Source: a virus
Strand: one strand, 5' to 3'
Virus record (IMG/VR): IMGVR_UViG_3300017781_000124
Coordinates: 1 to 24,622 of that record
DNA: 24,622 bases
Part shown: in pieces, positions 4,382 through 10,343 of the stretch
Layout of the letters: each line of letters begins with the position of its first letter
How positions within the stretch are numbered: the stretch's first letter is position 1
Notes under the pieces: generated by a model
Told to the model about the DNA's origin: nothing
Database searches by the model: none
Seen by the model: the letters and a program-made list of their open reading frames with translations, nothing else
Translations under genes and position numbers: made by a program

Positions 4382-4403
4382 GGATTTCCTCCCTGTCAAA
4401 CTG

Positions 4404-4439
4404 CCCCTGTCTAGTTCTCATCTACACAGGGGTTTTTTT
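4404..4439 (+). terminator. Rho-independent terminator for the plus-strand lysis operon
   Basis: The 7-bp perfect stem CCCCTGT (4404-4410)/ACAGGGG (4426-4432) continues after a C/C mismatch into TAG (4412-4414)/CTA (4422-4424), with the U tract TTTTTTT at 4433-4439 on the plus strand. There is no T tract in the minus direction, so it acts on rightward transcription. It lies about 415 bp after the last plus gene, beyond the whole HNH-like gene, so rightward readthrough RNA would be antisense to that gene. It also sits just upstream of that gene's ribosome-binding site. Confidence 0.82.
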
Positions 4440-4441
4440 AT

Positions 4442-5636: not shown

Positions 5637-6523
5637 TCTATTCCCCATTGTAATTGTGCAATTTTATGTATGTCTGGGCCGTGATAGTTTTTTATTCTAT
5701 CAAAGTCTGGTTGAACCATATCAAAGAGTGTGCGCCAGTTACCCCTTGCGTTTTTTAGTATGTTTTGTTGTACAAGCCATCTTTGTTTGACTAAGTTAAA
5801 GTGATAATCAAGACTATCTTTTTTAAGCAAGTCAGTTGTTTGTGCTGTGGCTATCTCAAATCCCTTTGATGTTACGAATAACAATGCAGGTTCTAGCCCT
5901 GTTGCTTTGTGATATACTGCCTGTTGAATTACCTGATTTATTGTAGGTTCGGTTCTAGGTGATGGTATTCGCCATGACCTAGTACCGTCCTTCTTCATTG
6001 GATTACGTGTGGGAAAGCTGCACTTTAAATCAAGCTCTAGTTTAGCTGATGCGTAATCAAGATACATCATACATGGCACATCAATACCATCTACATCCAT
6101 CCATCTTTTGTACTCACCTTCGATTTCCTGATTGCCAAAATATTCTCTCATACCTTGTAATGCATGAGAAGCCATCTCGCTAAGATGGTTTTTGATTTCA
6201 GCGTGTTCTTCTGCATCCCTGCCATCATCAAAACCTCTTGGTTTATAAAGGCTGTATTTATAAGCAACTTCTCGTAGTGCTTGCTCAAAAGACTTTTGTT
6301 CTTGCACTCCTCTTGCTTTGATGTAGTTATCAAGACCTAAAGCTAAATCTACTATCTTCTGGACAGCCTTACCGCCTTCCATTTTAGCAGAACCTGGGTA
6401 TCCTATCTTTAAATGATGGTCTATGAATAGCTTTAAGAAGTAATCATCAAGAGGTTGTGTACCACCTGATGCACTTACGTGCATGGCTCGACTGCCATAT
6501 TCTTTTCTATAATCTGGTATCAT
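5633..6523 (-). CDS. PD-(D/E)XK exonuclease of the recombination module (296 aa)
   Basis: The probable nuclease core is Glu137 (EGEYKRWMDVDG), Asp156 (MMYLDYAS) and Asp165-x-Lys167 (LELDLK), followed by a Gln/Tyr helix (NQVIQQAVYHKATG) as in the RecB/Cas4/lambda-exonuclease superfamily. The N-terminus has a conserved-looking PGSAKMEGGKAVQ segment (43-55). Such enzymes resect double-stranded ends to give 3' single strands for the annealing protein encoded just downstream. AAGGAG (6530-6535) stands six bases before the ATG, and a consensus promoter lies just upstream, giving a short leader. It is the first gene of a leftward operon that reads through 5406-5636, 4754-5437 and 4442-4744. Confidence 0.78.
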   Translation of the reverse strand: MIPDYRKEYGSRAMHVSASGGTQPLDDYFLKLFIDHHLKIGYPGSAKMEGGKAVQKIVDLALGLDNYIKARGVQEQKSFEQALREVAYKYSLYKPRGFDDGRDAEEHAEIKNHLSEMASHALQGMREYFGNQEIEGEYKRWMDVDGIDVPCMMYLDYASAKLELDLKCSFPTRNPMKKDGTRSWRIPSPRTEPTINQVIQQAVYHKATGLEPALLFVTSKGFEIATAQTTDLLKKDSLDYHFNLVKQRWLVQQNILKNARGNWRTLFDMVQPDFDRIKNYHGPDIHKIAQLQWGIE

Positions 6524-6544
6524 TGTTTTCTCCTTCCTTGACCC

Positions 6545-6588
6545 TTCATATCATACCTATTGACAATATGTCAAATAGTTATTATGAA
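6545..6588. promoter_or_regulatory. Back-to-back divergent sigma70-type promoters with overlapping palindromic -35 boxes
   Basis: Rightward promoter: TTGACA (6560-6565), 17-bp spacer, TATGAA (6583-6588), driving the gene at 6620. Leftward promoter on the minus strand: TTGACA (6569-6574), 18-bp spacer, TATGAA (6545-6550), driving the exonuclease at 6523. The two perfect -35 boxes form an inverted repeat (TTGACA ATA TGTCAA). The promoters should therefore compete for polymerase, and one bound regulator would block both. -10 boxes match 4 of 6. Confidence 0.72.
6558..6568. promoter_or_regulatory. Candidate operator, 11-bp palindrome TATTGACAATA (copy 1)
   Basis: TATTG-A-CAATA is a palindrome around its central base and covers the rightward -35 box. 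The identical 11-mer occurs at 9989-9999 over the -35 box of the leftward small-gene operon. It is a likely binding site for one of the small HTH proteins encoded here (6937-7125 or 8785-8958). Part of the match is forced by the shared TTGACA, so only the flanks TA and ATA are extra evidence. Confidence 0.45.
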
Positions 6589-6619
6589 TTATTTATTAAC
6601 AAAAGAAAAGGACAATGAA

Positions 6620-6940
6620 ATGGAAAACAAACAAGCATATAAAATGGTAAGAACAACTGACCCTGATACATCTATAGATGCAGCTATATCAATAGACCCA
6701 ACACGATTGGAGTCTTTAGTATTAGATGCAATTAGACATTTTGGTGAATCAGGTGCAACTATGGATGAAGTTGATAGAGCATTACCTGACGTTAGAGCTG
6801 GTAGTATCTCACCAAGGTTTAAGCCATTAATCGAAAAGGGTTTTGTTATTGGTGATGGTAGGACACGTAAGGCTATTTATTCTAATAAACAACAAAGAAT
6901 CTTATGGGCAGTTGAATTTTACAAGGAAGAAGAGCAATGA
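6620..6940 (+). CDS. Winged-helix DNA-binding protein (106 aa)
   Basis: The start is ATG 6620 with AAAGGA (6607-6612) seven bases upstream. A longer frame reaching 6560 would begin in the promoter. The opening MVRTTDPDTSIDAA and the helix-turn-helix-wing pattern (LVLDAIRHFGESGATMDEV, then SISPRFKPLIEKGFVIGDG, then TRKAIYSN) match a common phage winged-helix family of the form 'RxTDPDTSxxAA...SPRxxxLxxxGxI...GxTR'. These are usually found beside nuclease or replication genes. It binds DNA by inference and may be a regulator or a replication accessory. It ends in ATGA overlap with the next regulator gene. Confidence 0.72.
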   Translation: MENKQAYKMVRTTDPDTSIDAAISIDPTRLESLVLDAIRHFGESGATMDEVDRALPDVRAGSISPRFKPLIEKGFVIGDGRTRKAIYSNKQQRILWAVEFYKEEEQ

Positions 6941-7125: not shown

Positions 7126-8191
7126 TATAAAAATTGGTGATTGCAGAGATGTATTAAAAACATTGCCAGATAAATCTGTAGATTGTTGTGTAACATCTCC
7201 CCCTTACTGGGGATTAAGGGATTATCAAACAGGCACATGGGAAGGTGGTGACTCAGACTGTTTACACATGAGAACAACTAAAATATCTAAGAATACTGCT
7301 ACAGGTCATAAAGCTATGGCACAGCAAGGTAATGTTGTGTCTGACGCAATTTATAAAACAAAATGCCCCAAGTGTGGTGCGGTCAGAAAAGATAAACAAA
7401 TTGGCTTAGAAGAAACACCAGAAGAATACACAAAAAATATTGTTAATGTATTCAGAGAGGTAAGAAGAGTATTAAAAGATGATGGTACTTTGTGGCTTAA
7501 CCTTGGTGACACATATTCATCAGGAGGCAGGGCAACAACTACTAACCAAACCTTGCGAGGTGATAAAGACTATGGAGTTACAAGAGCTGCATCACCTGAA
7601 GGTATTAAACCTAAAGATTTAATCGGTACACCTTGGCGAGTAGCTTTTGCATTGCAAGCTGATGGATGGTATCTAAGGCAAGATATTATCTGGCACAAAC
7701 CTAATCCTATGCCTGAGAGTGTGCAAGATAGATGCACTAAGGCACATGAATATATATTTTTGTTAAGTAAAAGTAAGAATTATTACTATGATAACGATGC
7801 GATTAAAGAGAAGGCAACTGATTGGGGTACAAGAGATAGAGTGAATGGCAAGTATCACAATGAGGGTACTGGGTTGCAACCACATAGTGGTCTTGAAAAA
7901 TCTTACGAAACAAAAAATAAAAGGTCTGTGTGGACTGTACCAGTAAAAGGATATAAAGAAGCACACTTTGCAGTTTTTCCTACCGAACTTATAGAGCCTT
8001 GCATACTAGCTGGGTGTCCTAAAAATGGCACTGTCCTTGACCCTTTTGGGGGTTCTGGCACTACTGCATTAGTAGCTGATAGGTTAGGTAGAAAATCTAC
8101 AATAATAGAATTAAATAAAGATTATATTTCTATTGCTGATAATAGATTGTATCAAGATTCACCTTTGTTTGTGGATATAAATCATGGTTAA
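7118..8191 (+). CDS. DNA methyltransferase, N4-cytosine/N6-adenine beta class (357 aa)
   Basis: Motif IV is TSPPYW (26-31) near the N-terminus and motif I is DPFGGSGTT (308-316) near the C-terminus, the order that defines the beta class of amino-methyltransferases (PF01555). An insert between them has Cys48-x-His50 and Cys83-x2-Cys86, likely a zinc ribbon, then IGLEETPEEYTKNIV and FREVRRVLKDDGTLWLNLGD. This arrangement is familiar in phage enzymes with the SPPY motif. It would methylate an exocyclic amine in phage or host DNA using S-adenosylmethionine; the target sequence cannot be read from the protein. ATG 7118 is chosen because the family starts 'MxDIKIGD'; in-frame ATG 7106 and GTG 7091 lie further inside the upstream gene. 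Likely roles are evasion of host restriction or marking for packaging or regulation. Confidence 0.88.
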   Translation: MVDIKIGDCRDVLKTLPDKSVDCCVTSPPYWGLRDYQTGTWEGGDSDCLHMRTTKISKNTATGHKAMAQQGNVVSDAIYKTKCPKCGAVRKDKQIGLEETPEEYTKNIVNVFREVRRVLKDDGTLWLNLGDTYSSGGRATTTNQTLRGDKDYGVTRAASPEGIKPKDLIGTPWRVAFALQADGWYLRQDIIWHKPNPMPESVQDRCTKAHEYIFLLSKSKNYYYDNDAIKEKATDWGTRDRVNGKYHNEGTGLQPHSGLEKSYETKNKRSVWTVPVKGYKEAHFAVFPTELIEPCILAGCPKNGTVLDPFGGSGTTALVADRLGRKSTIIELNKDYISIADNRLYQDSPLFVDINHG

Positions 8192-8591
8192 TGGCAGAAA
8201 CAAAGGGGCATCATTTGAAAGAGAGGTTGCAAACTATTTAAAACTGCACCTCTCTCTTCAAGATATCAAAAGAGACATCGAACAATACCGCACTGCTGAT
8301 AGAGGTGACTTACTTGGGATAGATGGATGGACTATTGAATGCAAGCGATATAAGCGTCCTCAGTCCAGTGTAGGTATTTATCGCAAGGAGTGGTGGGAAC
8401 AAGTGGTAAAGGCTTCTGAGAAGGCTAAAAACAAGCCTGTACTTATATTTAAGTTTGACCATCAACCTATACGCTGCGCTCTCTATCTAAAACATATCAA
8501 TAATAAATATAAGGGTAATGATGTAGCGATTGTTACCCTTGAAGCTTGGGTAAAGCTCCTCTCTCTCTCTAGGGCTTGCGTGTCAATATAA
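8184..8591 (+). CDS. PD-(D/E)XK nuclease, Holliday-junction-resolvase-like (135 aa)
   Basis: The opening NKGASFEREVANYL with Glu12/Glu14, then Asp42 (ADRGDLLGIDG) and Glu52-Cys53-Lys54 (WTIECKRYKR), give the E-D-ExK core of archaeal Hjc-type resolvases and related phage endonucleases; the length also fits. It would cut branched recombination or replication intermediates before packaging. It overlaps the methyltransferase by 8 bp and so is co-translated, which also leaves open a restriction-modification-like pair. It is the last rightward gene before the hairpin region. Confidence 0.75.
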   Translation: MVNGRNKGASFEREVANYLKLHLSLQDIKRDIEQYRTADRGDLLGIDGWTIECKRYKRPQSSVGIYRKEWWEQVVKASEKAKNKPVLIFKFDHQPIRCALYLKHINNKYKGNDVAIVTLEAWVKLLSLSRACVSI

Positions 8592-8619
8592 AATATGATA
8601 TTGAATAATTTCATTGTCT

Positions 8620-8647
8620 ACGCGAGTGCATACATTGCATCACGCGT
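8620..8647. other. Inverted repeat with CGCG and TGCA arms
   Basis: ACGCG (8620-8624) pairs with CGCGT (8643-8647) and TGCA (8627-8630) with TGCA (8636-8639) around a five-base loop TACAT. An 8-bp palindrome CACGCGTG lies at 8641-8648. It is the first of three hairpin-forming segments in a 193-bp interval without genes. It could be an RNA hairpin or a protein-binding site. Confidence 0.45.
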
Positions 8648-8657
8648 GCCTTTCTCT

Positions 8658-8704
8658 AAATAAGTGTTCTACTGCCCCTCAAAGGGCAAGTAGGACGCTT
8701 ATTT
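8658..8704 (+). ncRNA. Long RNA hairpin (20-bp stem) after the resolvase gene; candidate terminator or structured RNA
   Basis: AAATAAGTGTTCTACT (8658-8673) pairs with AGTAGGACGCTTATTT (8689-8704). After a bulged A (8688), GCCC (8674-8677) pairs with GGGC (8684-8687), closing a CTCAAA loop. The only non-Watson-Crick positions (8665/8697 and 8668/8694) are U-G in plus-strand RNA but A-C mismatches in minus-strand RNA, so the fold is built for rightward transcripts. There is no clean U tract after it, so it is not a standard terminator. A processing or stability element, or a small RNA, is possible. Confidence 0.6.
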
Positions 8705-8723
8705 AAGAGCATATATAATAATA

Positions 8724-8757
8724 AGAACGCGAAACACATATATATATCTCGCGTTCT
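8724..8757. repeat. Perfect 9-bp inverted repeat AGAACGCGA/TCGCGTTCT
   Basis: AGAACGCGA (8724-8732) and its exact complement TCGCGTTCT (8749-8757) enclose a 16-base loop with an alternating AT run. The same 9-mer appears once more at 10207-10215 in the other large non-coding region, within a shared 12-mer (TATAGAACGCGA; minus strand 8749-8760, plus strand 10204-10215). AT-only runs (8758-8785) with CTATAG repeats follow. It may be a binding site for a replication or regulatory protein, or part of an origin. Confidence 0.5.
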
Positions 8758-8784
8758 ATAGCCTATATATATAACCTATAGATA

Positions 8785-8958
8785 TTATTTTAGTTCTGAT
8801 TTTAAAGCTTGCATAGCTAACACTATAGCTTTTGGTATAGGATAGTTACCATACTCATAGTTAAATATAGTTTGCCTGGTTAACTCAAGTTTCTCTGCTA
8901 GTTGTATCCTAGTAAAGCCAAGTGCCTCTCTTTCTTTCATGAATTGTTGTTTAGTCAT
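8785..8958 (-). CDS. Small XRE/Cro-type regulator (57 aa)
   Basis: A 57-residue helix-turn-helix protein: MKEREALGFTRIQLAEKLEL, then TRQTIFNYEYGNYPIPKAI, then a final helix LAMQALKSELK. The 'LGxTRxQLAEKLxxTRQTIxNYExG' pattern is classic HTH_3. It is the last gene of a leftward operon of tiny genes and overlaps the preceding gene by 8 bp. A role in autoregulation of this operon or of the divergent switch is likely. It is a second small regulator, distinct in sequence from the one at 6937-7125, so the pair could act as opposing switches. Confidence 0.78.
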   Translation of the reverse strand: MTKQQFMKEREALGFTRIQLAEKLELTRQTIFNYEYGNYPIPKAIVLAMQALKSELK

Positions 8959-9109
8959 ACTCTACCTCGTAGTTTATAGATGTTAAATATAGTTTTGGGT
9001 CTTGTGATACTGCTATCTCTGCATAATTAGCTGCATCCTCTCTGTTACTAGCCGTTATGTTTACTTTATAAGTTTGATAAAATGTTACTGTAAAACTTTC
9101 CTCATTCAT
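8951..9109 (-). CDS. Small protein, unknown (52 aa)
   Basis: A 52-residue protein (MNEESFTVTFYQTYKVNITA, then SNREDAANYAEIA, then LYLTSINYEVEYD). The beta-alpha-beta pattern with an 'xxAxxxAxxxA' helix looks like a complete mini-domain. It starts in ATGA overlap with the upstream gene and its stop lies inside the next gene (8-bp overlap), so it is part of one polycistron. GAGG stands before the ATG. It is not recognised. Confidence 0.6.
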   Translation of the reverse strand: MNEESFTVTFYQTYKVNITASNREDAANYAEIAVSQDPKLYLTSINYEVEYD

Positions 9110-9321
9110 TCTTTTGCATCCTCTTTTAAAACGTAATCCATATAGTAATCACCTGAAGGTGATTTAAAACCAAAAAAATGCCTGATATAAAACATTGCAT
9201 TCTCTATTTCTCTGATGTCTGTAAGACATAAATCTTTAGTTTCATCTATGTTTTGAATAGCTATTTTAAGTTTGTTATGAATTTTAAGAAATTCTTTTAT
9301 ATTTTGTTTATCAAGTTTCAT
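9106..9321 (-). CDS. Small helical protein, unknown (71 aa)
   Basis: A 71-residue Lys/Ile/Asp-rich helical protein (KEFLKIHNKLKIAIQNID, then CLTDIREIENAMFYIRHFFG) ending with DYVLKEDAKE. A purine-rich ribosome site (GAGAGAGGG) stands seven bases before the ATG. The stop overlaps the next start (ATGA). No motif is recognised; a small phage protein acting on a host target would fit an early operon, but that is inference from position. Confidence 0.62.
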   Translation of the reverse strand: MKLDKQNIKEFLKIHNKLKIAIQNIDETKDLCLTDIREIENAMFYIRHFFGFKSPSGDYYMDYVLKEDAKE

Positions 9322-9345
9322 TTTTTTGCCCTCTCTCTTTCTCTT

Positions 9346-9504
9346 CTAAAATAAATCAAATGGATTAAAGCAGGAATTATATTCATTCCATTGGCTTTTA
9401 TCCCATGTATTACAACCTAATAGCCAATTGATAATAATAAAATCAAACATAGCTACTGCTAATAGTGTTATCATTATTGCTATAAAAATATTAAACTTGG
9501 TCAT
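9346..9504 (-). CDS. Small single-span membrane protein (52 aa)
   Basis: A 52-residue protein with one long hydrophobic segment (residues 4-29: FNIFIAIMITLLAVAMFDF, then IIINWLLG), then a polar Trp/Asn-rich tail with two cysteines (31 and 47), the second in NSCFNPFDLF. GGGAG precedes the ATG by nine bases. It is likely an inner-membrane protein with a short external tail. In an early operon such proteins often act in superinfection exclusion or host membrane modification, but there is no specific evidence here. Confidence 0.6.
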   Translation of the reverse strand: MTKFNIFIAIMITLLAVAMFDFIIINWLLGCNTWDKSQWNEYNSCFNPFDLF

Positions 9505-9508
9505 TGTC

Positions 9509-9661
9509 TTATTCTCCCTCTACACCCTCTAATTCATCAATTAATACTCCAAGAGAAAGATACCAATCTCTTTCTTTCGGTTCCTTTTCGTATTGATTAA
9601 CTGTAATTTCTTTTAATTTATCAGCTATCTCTTGATGTGTAAGTTTGCATTGTTTATTCAT
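9509..9661 (-). CDS. Small acidic helical protein, unknown (50 aa)
   Basis: A 50-residue protein (MNKQCKLTHQEIADKLKEIT, then NQYEKEPKERDWYLSLGVL, then IDELEGVEGE). It begins like a helix-turn-helix ('LTHQEIADKLKEI') but is too short for a full domain. The leader CAATGAAAAGGATTAAGACA before its ATG is nearly identical to that of the next upstream gene, including an AAGGA ribosome site. It is not recognised. Confidence 0.58.
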   Translation of the reverse strand: MNKQCKLTHQEIADKLKEITVNQYEKEPKERDWYLSLGVLIDELEGVEGE

Positions 9662-9689
9662 TGTCTTAATCCTTTTCATTGTTTATTGT

Positions 9690-9932
9690 TTAATTGTTAT
9701 TTTGAAATATCCAAGTATGTTTAACTTTACCATCACCACCAACCACCGTGTGGTGTATTGGTGTTTTATCGTTCATTTTGTGCATAAATAAATATTCTAC
9801 TATTTCAGCGATATTGATATGTTCTTGATTATCGTCATAATAGATATGACCATTTTTTACAGTTGTTTTGGCGTGCATTATTTTCTGATAAATATCCATT
9901 GCGATATCATAATTAGATAAATCTTTGTACAT
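9690..9932 (-). CDS. First gene of the leftward small-gene operon, unknown (80 aa)
   Basis: An 80-residue protein (MYKDLSNYDIAMDIYQKIMH, then TTVKNGHIYYDDNQEHINI, then VVGGDGKVKHTWIFQNNN). ATG 9932 is chosen because AAAGGA lies about ten bases before it; extending upstream would run into the promoter. It has a helical N-terminal half and a beta C-terminal half with several His residues (29, 39, 51, 60, 61, 72). No known motif. It is the gene closest to the operon promoter (-35 at 9992-9997) and so probably the earliest and most abundant product. Confidence 0.65.
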   Translation of the reverse strand: MYKDLSNYDIAMDIYQKIMHAKTTVKNGHIYYDDNQEHINIAEIVEYLFMHKMNDKTPIHHTVVGGDGKVKHTWIFQNNN

Positions 9933-9968
9933 TGTCTTTATTCCTTTCATTGTAAAGTTATTTAACAA

Positions 9969-9999: not shown

Positions 10000-10343
10000 C
10001 TCACAAGTAAAATAATTTAACATTAATTATATGATACTATATTTTGTGGATGGTATTGTGTGTCAACACTATATATGGTATTAGTTACCTATTCTATTAG
10101 AGCTACTATTAGCTCGTGTTATATAGTGTAGTTTAAATATAGTTATTTTGTTGAGTGTGTTTTGTATAATTATCAACAGACAGACATTACAATCTCATAT
10201 GTGTATAGAACGCGATTGCCTATGCTATATATTTACAATGTGTAGCCTAGGCGGGGTATATTTTATAGCCATCACCCCCAGACAGGCGCACCACTCTATA
10301 TATGTGTTAAATACTACTATCAACCACACAGTCAGGAGTATCC
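10000..10343. other. Non-coding AT-rich control region between the early leftward operon and terminase
   Basis: No credible gene lies here. It holds a 6-bp hairpin GAGCTA (10100-10105)/TAGCTC (10110-10115) with a CTAT loop, a direct repeat ATGGTATT (10050-10057 and 10075-10082), and a perfect -10 box TATAAT on the plus strand (10165-10170) without a good -35. It also holds AGAACGCGA (10207-10215), the palindrome GCCTAGGC (10245-10252) and GGGGT/ACCCC arms (10253-10257/10274-10278). The AGGAG ribosome site of the terminase gene is at 10334-10338. The late-gene promoter and possibly a packaging or origin site are expected here. Confidence 0.5.

Follow-up and report, generated by a model that had tools for sequence, protein, structure and literature searches.

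The window analysed here, a 24,622 nt stretch of virus record IMGVR_UViG_3300017781_000124, is from a marine phage with kinship to the SAR11 viruses: it is a relative of the HTVC010P-type pelagiphages, with a capsid protein 73% identical to that of HTVC203P, and another relative (G001) is apparently complete, at 32.4 kb with a 123-nt terminal repeat. HTVC010P-type phages are among the most abundant in the ocean (PMC12753301) and are described as having no RNA polymerase of their own; the study of one such phage that reports this also found no terminators or riboswitches (PMC10504331).

The hairpin interval between two converging operons

A plus-strand operon encoding an N6/N4 methyltransferase (PF01555) and then a PD-(D/E)XK resolvase (PF24608, stop at 8591) converges, as the earlier note had stated, on a minus-strand operon that ends in a small HTH_3 gene (stop at 8785). 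The interval between them contains three hairpins (H1, H2 and H3, Table 1), found where that note had put them, and these are real and well beyond chance, the whole interval folding with z = -9.0 on the plus strand and -5.6 on the minus strand. Its description of H2 was also exact: the stem has 20 pairs, its only bulge is A8688, U8665-G8697 and U8668-G8694 are wobble pairs, and there is no U tract on its 3′ side, where the sequence reads GCTTATTTAAGAGC. The limits given for the interval (8592-8784) need one change: the start of the conserved unit moves from 8592 to ~8576, so as to take in a promoter-like element that overlaps the resolvase 3′ end. A search for tRNAs found none, and the interval matched no family in Rfam 15 at the gathering score, whilst permissive thresholds gave only sub-threshold matches to hairpin miRNA and other models, none of them credible. 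In Roseobacter phages CRP-811/821 the resolvase sits in another gene order.

H2 is not an intrinsic (rho-independent) terminator when this is defined as a GC-rich stem followed by a U tract: an A/U-mixed TTATTTA lies within its stem and no U run follows, whereas the canonical terminator of the same phage family, at the other convergent junction, has a T6-T8 tail. H2 is probably the 3′ end of an RNA, acting as a terminator and/or an exonuclease barrier. H3 is probably a 3′-end or terminator-like element of the minus-strand early operon, separate from the RNA that carries H1 and H2. Elsewhere in the window (4403-4440), a canonical intrinsic terminator (CCCCTGT..ACAGGGG-T7) stands at the end of the lysis operon and is kept in relatives.

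Table 1 Hairpins, promoter-like elements, predicted RNA and predicted targets, in positions of the window
Feature	Position	Strand	Remarks
Promoter-like element TTGCGTGTCAATATAAAATATGATA	8576-8600	+	palindromic TTGnnnnnCAA, then -10-like TATGAT; overlaps last resolvase codons
Promoter-like element, second copy	10056-10080	+	264 nt upstream of terminase small subunit gene
Predicted small RNA, ~100 nt	8605-8705	+	from single-sequence fold, strand preference (14/14) and tree-based pairing test; 5′ end estimated
Seed 1, UUCAUUGU	8610-8617	+	complement of early/middle start context ACAAUGAA; invariant in 15 group 1 sequences
H1	8619-8648	+	lower stem covaries; apex length varies widely; tree-based test jointly with H2
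Seed 2, linker CCUUUCUCU (CCUUUCU)	8649-8657	+	conserved pyrimidine linker between H1 and H2; complements early Shine-Dalgarno AGAAAGG
H2	8658-8704	+	20 pairs; no variation in lower stem AAAUAAGU/GCUUAUUU, which keeps a U-G
H3	8724-8757	-	terminator-like on minus strand, tail TATTATTATA; 3′ flank folds better on minus strand in most members
Predicted target, first gene of middle operon, start codon 6620	6610-6622	+	GGACAATGAAATGG; ddG -14.7, bipartite
Predicted target, early gene, start codon 9504	9504-9528	-	ddG -16.8
Predicted target, early gene, start codon 9661	9661-9685	-	ddG -14.6, bipartite pairing
Predicted target, first early gene, start codon 9932	9932-9956	-	ddG -14.3
Predicted target (weaker), first gene of recombination operon	6523-6547	-	ddG -11.3

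Conservation of the block and its upstream element

A protein search and two DNA patterns gathered 15 distinct block-carrying sequences (group 1), one of which (L014) ends inside the block; pairing and strand counts rest on 14 sequences. In these 14 marine phage sequences, all from HTVC010P-type relatives, H1 and H2 are kept with compensatory changes, and the block follows either the resolvase or an extra gene inserted behind it (L004-L006); this gene encodes 222 amino acids (L005:433-1101) and the block is intact downstream of it. The core of H2 occurs in at least four forms in group 1, including a complete swap from GTTCTACTGCCC to AACCCAGAGCCT, with both sides changed at 7 pairs and 98.2% of the alignment cells paired, and its basal part AAATAAGT/GCTTATTT is invariant throughout, together with its U·G. 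The lower stem of H1 also shows compensatory changes in the alignment. The largest change in H2 is a single block swap, and a pairwise R-scape-like covariation analysis, which had low power with so few sequences, gave no pair with E < 0.05 over all column pairs. To complement it, we compared the helices with a tree-based null in which the 44 helix substitutions were re-placed at random along the tree (300 replicates). The observed proportion of paired helix cells in H1 and H2 was 97.4%, against 78.7 ± 3.3% in the null (0/300 replicates). Pair positions with G·U numbered 8 and those with A·C 0, where the null gave ~13 and ~9.

As the helix substitutions keep pairing, with G·U present and A·C absent, the functional strand of H1 and H2 is the plus strand, and the block carries conserved RNA structure on one strand. 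The plus-strand RNA signature that the earlier note claimed for the middle stem applies to H1 and H2, which fold more stably on the plus than on the minus strand in 14/14 members, but not to H3, which lacks this preference; across the 90 nt 3′ of H2, where H3 lies, the minus-strand fold is the more stable in most members. A DNA search of cultured phages with positions 8100-9400 and an H2 pattern search of the genome collection both gave no match, and in a broad motif scan the matches beyond the known members of group 1 and of a more distant group 2 looked like chance.

The promoter-like element upstream of the hairpins occurs a second time before the terminase operon. Searching nine records with up to 3 mismatches recovered the hairpin-side and terminase-side copies, on the same strand, wherever the records cover those sites, with one further weak three-mismatch match and 0 matches to the reversed pattern used as a control. 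Every group 1 member conserves the element, and it can still be recognised in group 2; it has no clear -35/-10 pair, and our reading of this predicted element is that the two sites share a late promoter or an activator site. The 264-nt 5′ leader of the terminase operon that follows the second copy (10081-10343) contains conserved blocks (CAGACAGAC) and a GC-rich hairpin at ~10230-10290, and could be a packaging site or a regulatory leader.

Complementarity to early and middle gene starts

Genes were classed as early, middle or late from gene order, with starts from a simple purpose-made caller. An initial scan for complementarity with shuffled-query controls was not significant alone, and the signal appeared once the genes were split by class. 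When every hexamer was ranked by its enrichment at early/middle starts (46) over late starts (124) in four genomes, ACAATG came top (24/46 vs. 0/124, p = 8e-17), followed by CAATGA (22 vs. 1), AATGAA (17 vs. 2) and ATGAAA (13 vs. 0), counts that are not independent across genomes because the block-carrying phages share kinship. The contrast is also present inside single genomes, in G004 (10/14 vs. 1/32, p = 2e-6) and in G001 (5/10 vs. 1/29, p = 0.002), and in eight further members CAATG was found at 46 of 65 early starts and at none of 11 late starts. In two pelagiphages from culture, where the search for such a block found none, CAATG occurs at 2/28 early and middle and 2/85 late starts. Late starts prefer AGGAG (39/124, vs. 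1/46 early/middle).

The complements of the four top hexamers assemble into the seed UUUCAUUGU. Seed 1 lies directly 5′ of H1, is better conserved than any other non-stem part of the predicted RNA and is predicted to be unpaired with a probability of 0.8-0.99 if the 5′ end of the RNA lies a few nucleotides past the -10; the block includes a conserved segment, predicted to be accessible, that is complementary to the start regions of the predicted target mRNAs. Similarly, the energy of pairing between the linker and the Shine-Dalgarno is better at early/middle than at late genes (p = 2.6e-4). Tandem start-like units (ACAATGAAAGGAATAAAGACAATG) precede early genes at 9930-9956 and 9658-9682 on the minus strand, a possible leader mini-ORF overlapping the Shine-Dalgarno.

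In cofolds of the predicted RNA with start regions, early/middle genes had a mean ddG of -10.9 kcal/mol and late genes one of -5.6 (p = 2.5e-10), and most of this contrast was gone when the seeds were reversed (-6.3 vs. -5.3). None of 120 equal-length random genomic windows matched the class separation in any of three genomes (z -4.3 to -5.4). Left unconstrained, the cofolds show bipartite pairing in which H1 and H2 stay intact and H1 forms a three-way junction; the order of the seeds is correct for antiparallel pairing, with the 5′ seed at the start codon and the 3′ seed at the upstream Shine-Dalgarno, and each pairing is short (~5-12 bp). The early gene starting at 9321 is also among the best predicted targets in the window (Table 1). 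At the start of the middle operon the motif AGGACAATGAA is kept in nearly all relatives whilst the sequence upstream of it diverges, and the counterpart of the first recombination-operon gene is among the best non-early predicted targets in all four genomes. The early HTH gene adjoining the block (start 8958) fits poorly, with a ddG of only -4.6. The RNA also gives fairly good predicted pairing (mean -12.7) with early starts of HTVC203P, a phage whose search for the block was negative, and part of the early-gene consensus is for this reason older than the RNA or serves the ribosome.

The more distant phages of group 2 (L018, L019, L103 and others) keep the synteny, the promoter-like element and TCATTGT, but their predicted RNA differs, being a multi-hairpin of ~190 nt rich in CATTG/CAATG (L018:5688-5910; L103:3170-3388, minus strand), in which CATTG occurs seven times, inverted relative to CAATG. 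Extending the targeting model to group 2 gave a paired seed and almost no targeting; either the function differs there or the targeting model is incomplete.

A predicted late small RNA and competing readings

The interval probably encodes a conserved folded RNA with two unpaired stretches that complement ribosome-binding sites of early genes of the phage itself, and this RNA probably switches the genes off late in infection. The reading we favour, with a probability of about 50%, is a late-expressed, plus-strand phage small RNA of ~100 nt that keeps early and middle genes from being translated. The promoter element also present before the late (terminase/structural) operon has a copy of its own here, from which transcription of the RNA would probably start. 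From 5′ to 3′ the RNA would consist of seed 1, H1, seed 2 and H2: seed 1 would pair with the start-codon region of an mRNA and seed 2 with its Shine-Dalgarno, H1 would be bridged as a three-way junction between the two seed pairings, and H2 would end or protect the RNA. Such pairing would occlude the ribosome on early genes, on the first genes of the middle operon and on the first gene of the recombination operon, and would spare late genes. We infer from the sequences that the RNA is transcribed, that it is made late, that it pairs in the cell and that it affects translation; made late, it would therefore shut off early and middle protein synthesis and leave the late genes alone. That a single late RNA, as a two-part complement of the early ribosome-binding-site consensus, acts as a class-wide translational off switch which late genes escape is a more tentative proposal, to which we give slightly less than even odds. 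The earlier note had offered a structured small RNA, a stabilising 3′ element and a bidirectional transcription barrier; the small RNA is the best supported of these, through the strand-specific compensatory changes, the promoter-like element and the seeds, although H3 probably does not belong to the same RNA, and a role for H2 as terminator or stabiliser at its 3′ end is compatible with it. The promoter-like copy and the target complementarity go beyond that note.

The position of the hairpins at a convergent junction suits an arrangement without a trans-acting RNA, in which H1, H2 and H3 are a transcription barrier and the 3′ ends of the converging operons, H2 being a bidirectional terminator with a weak U tract and an RNA stabiliser and H3 a minus-strand terminator. 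Tails that are symmetrical on both strands (TAAATAAG...CTTATTTA), a stem core swapped as a block between fixed A/T flanks, and a scan in which the one strong stable-stem/U-tract terminator common to the genomes fell at the other convergent junction are all in keeping with this, but H2 lacks the canonical tail of that family terminator, the conserved U-G wobbles and strand bias argue against it, and the promoter-like copy, the conserved H1 and the invariant seeds matching early-gene starts are left unexplained. We regard it as unlikely.

Less probable again, and in our view doubtful, is a structured small RNA whose targets are host mRNAs or a protein, or that is a 3′UTR-derived fragment, where the match to early starts reflects a shared ribosome-binding-site consensus or the relic of an antisense start. 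The minus strand of the seeds does read as a ribosome-binding site split by H1, the early Shine-Dalgarno consensus is partly present in HTVC203P and group 2 lacks targeting; yet an antisense open-reading frame is not conserved (3 to 100 codons), H1 folds worse on the minus strand, both seeds are conserved and match in the order that antiparallel pairing requires while H1 stays folded, and the discrimination between early/middle and late genes exceeds that of all random windows. An operator, replication or recombination site, with the palindromes acting as duplex or cruciform DNA, is very improbable: the TTGnnnnnCAA palindrome resembles a dimer operator, inverted repeats of CATTG/CAATG abound in the version of group 2, and two direct copies of the element flank the early operon, but retention of G-U-type pairs and absence of A-C would be unexpected for DNA palindromes, GC skew does not turn at the hairpin block, and both copies of the upstream element have a direction. 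Further candidates were rejected or set aside. A conserved minus-strand gene with a hairpin-split ribosome site conflicts with the strand bias and with a frame that is mostly below 45 codons, a replication origin has no skew signal, and a CRISPR-repeat mimic or a 6S-like RNA was set aside because the H2 core swaps between unrelated sequences and a large central bubble is absent.

Among known RNAs, NfeR1 and AbcR1/2 have anti-Shine-Dalgarno motifs, which are unpaired pyrimidine-rich segments beside hairpins that pair at the Shine-Dalgarno of many mRNAs. The predicted window RNA likewise has an unpaired pyrimidine-rich segment beside hairpins that complements the Shine-Dalgarno, whereas NfeR1 and AbcR1/2 are host-encoded and address the Shine-Dalgarno only, and the window RNA adds a start-codon seed with a hairpin between the seeds. 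Lambda 6S RNA is a short non-coding transcript from pR′ at the head of the late operon. It is tied to a late promoter just as the window RNA stands behind a late-operon-type promoter-like element, but differs in lying at the head of the late operon, and we know of no early-gene complementarity in lambda 6S RNA. NfeR1 and AbcR1/2 belong to the alphaproteobacterial sRNAs (PMC10746234, PMC8844928), and a review of phage-derived small RNAs (PMC12197685) lists lambda 6S RNA as an sRNA whose function is unexplored. According to that review, P22 sar and lambda OOP are short phage antisense RNAs that repress phage mRNAs by pairing, sar by blocking initiation of ant translation, and aQ is likewise a single-target antisense phage RNA, whilst lambda PreS acts on the host dnaN mRNA and VP882 VpdS on host and phage mRNAs with Hfq (PMC12197685). 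As with sar and OOP, a short phage-encoded RNA is predicted to base pair with phage mRNAs; unlike them, described against one mRNA each, it would address a gene class, through short stretches complementary to a consensus start region. It resembles PreS and VpdS as a predicted trans-acting RNA encoded by the phage, those two being expressed in infection, and differs in that its predicted targets are the phage's early and middle starts.

One viral RNA silencing a whole class of the virus's own genes would be unusual, and neither a small literature search nor the passages of the review (PMC12197685) that it covered contained a phage-derived small RNA that represses its phage's early genes as a class. 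If the proposal is right, the start regions of early genes hold a class tag that an RNA can read. An RNA of this kind would be a simple and testable answer to how HTVC010P-type phages pass from early to late expression, and a compact natural case in which an entire gene class is repressed by one RNA. Many metagenomic contigs (L004, L005, L014, L017, L020, L022, L027 and L097) start or stop close to the hairpin block, no more than a few hundred bases away, perhaps as an assembly break from strain variation.
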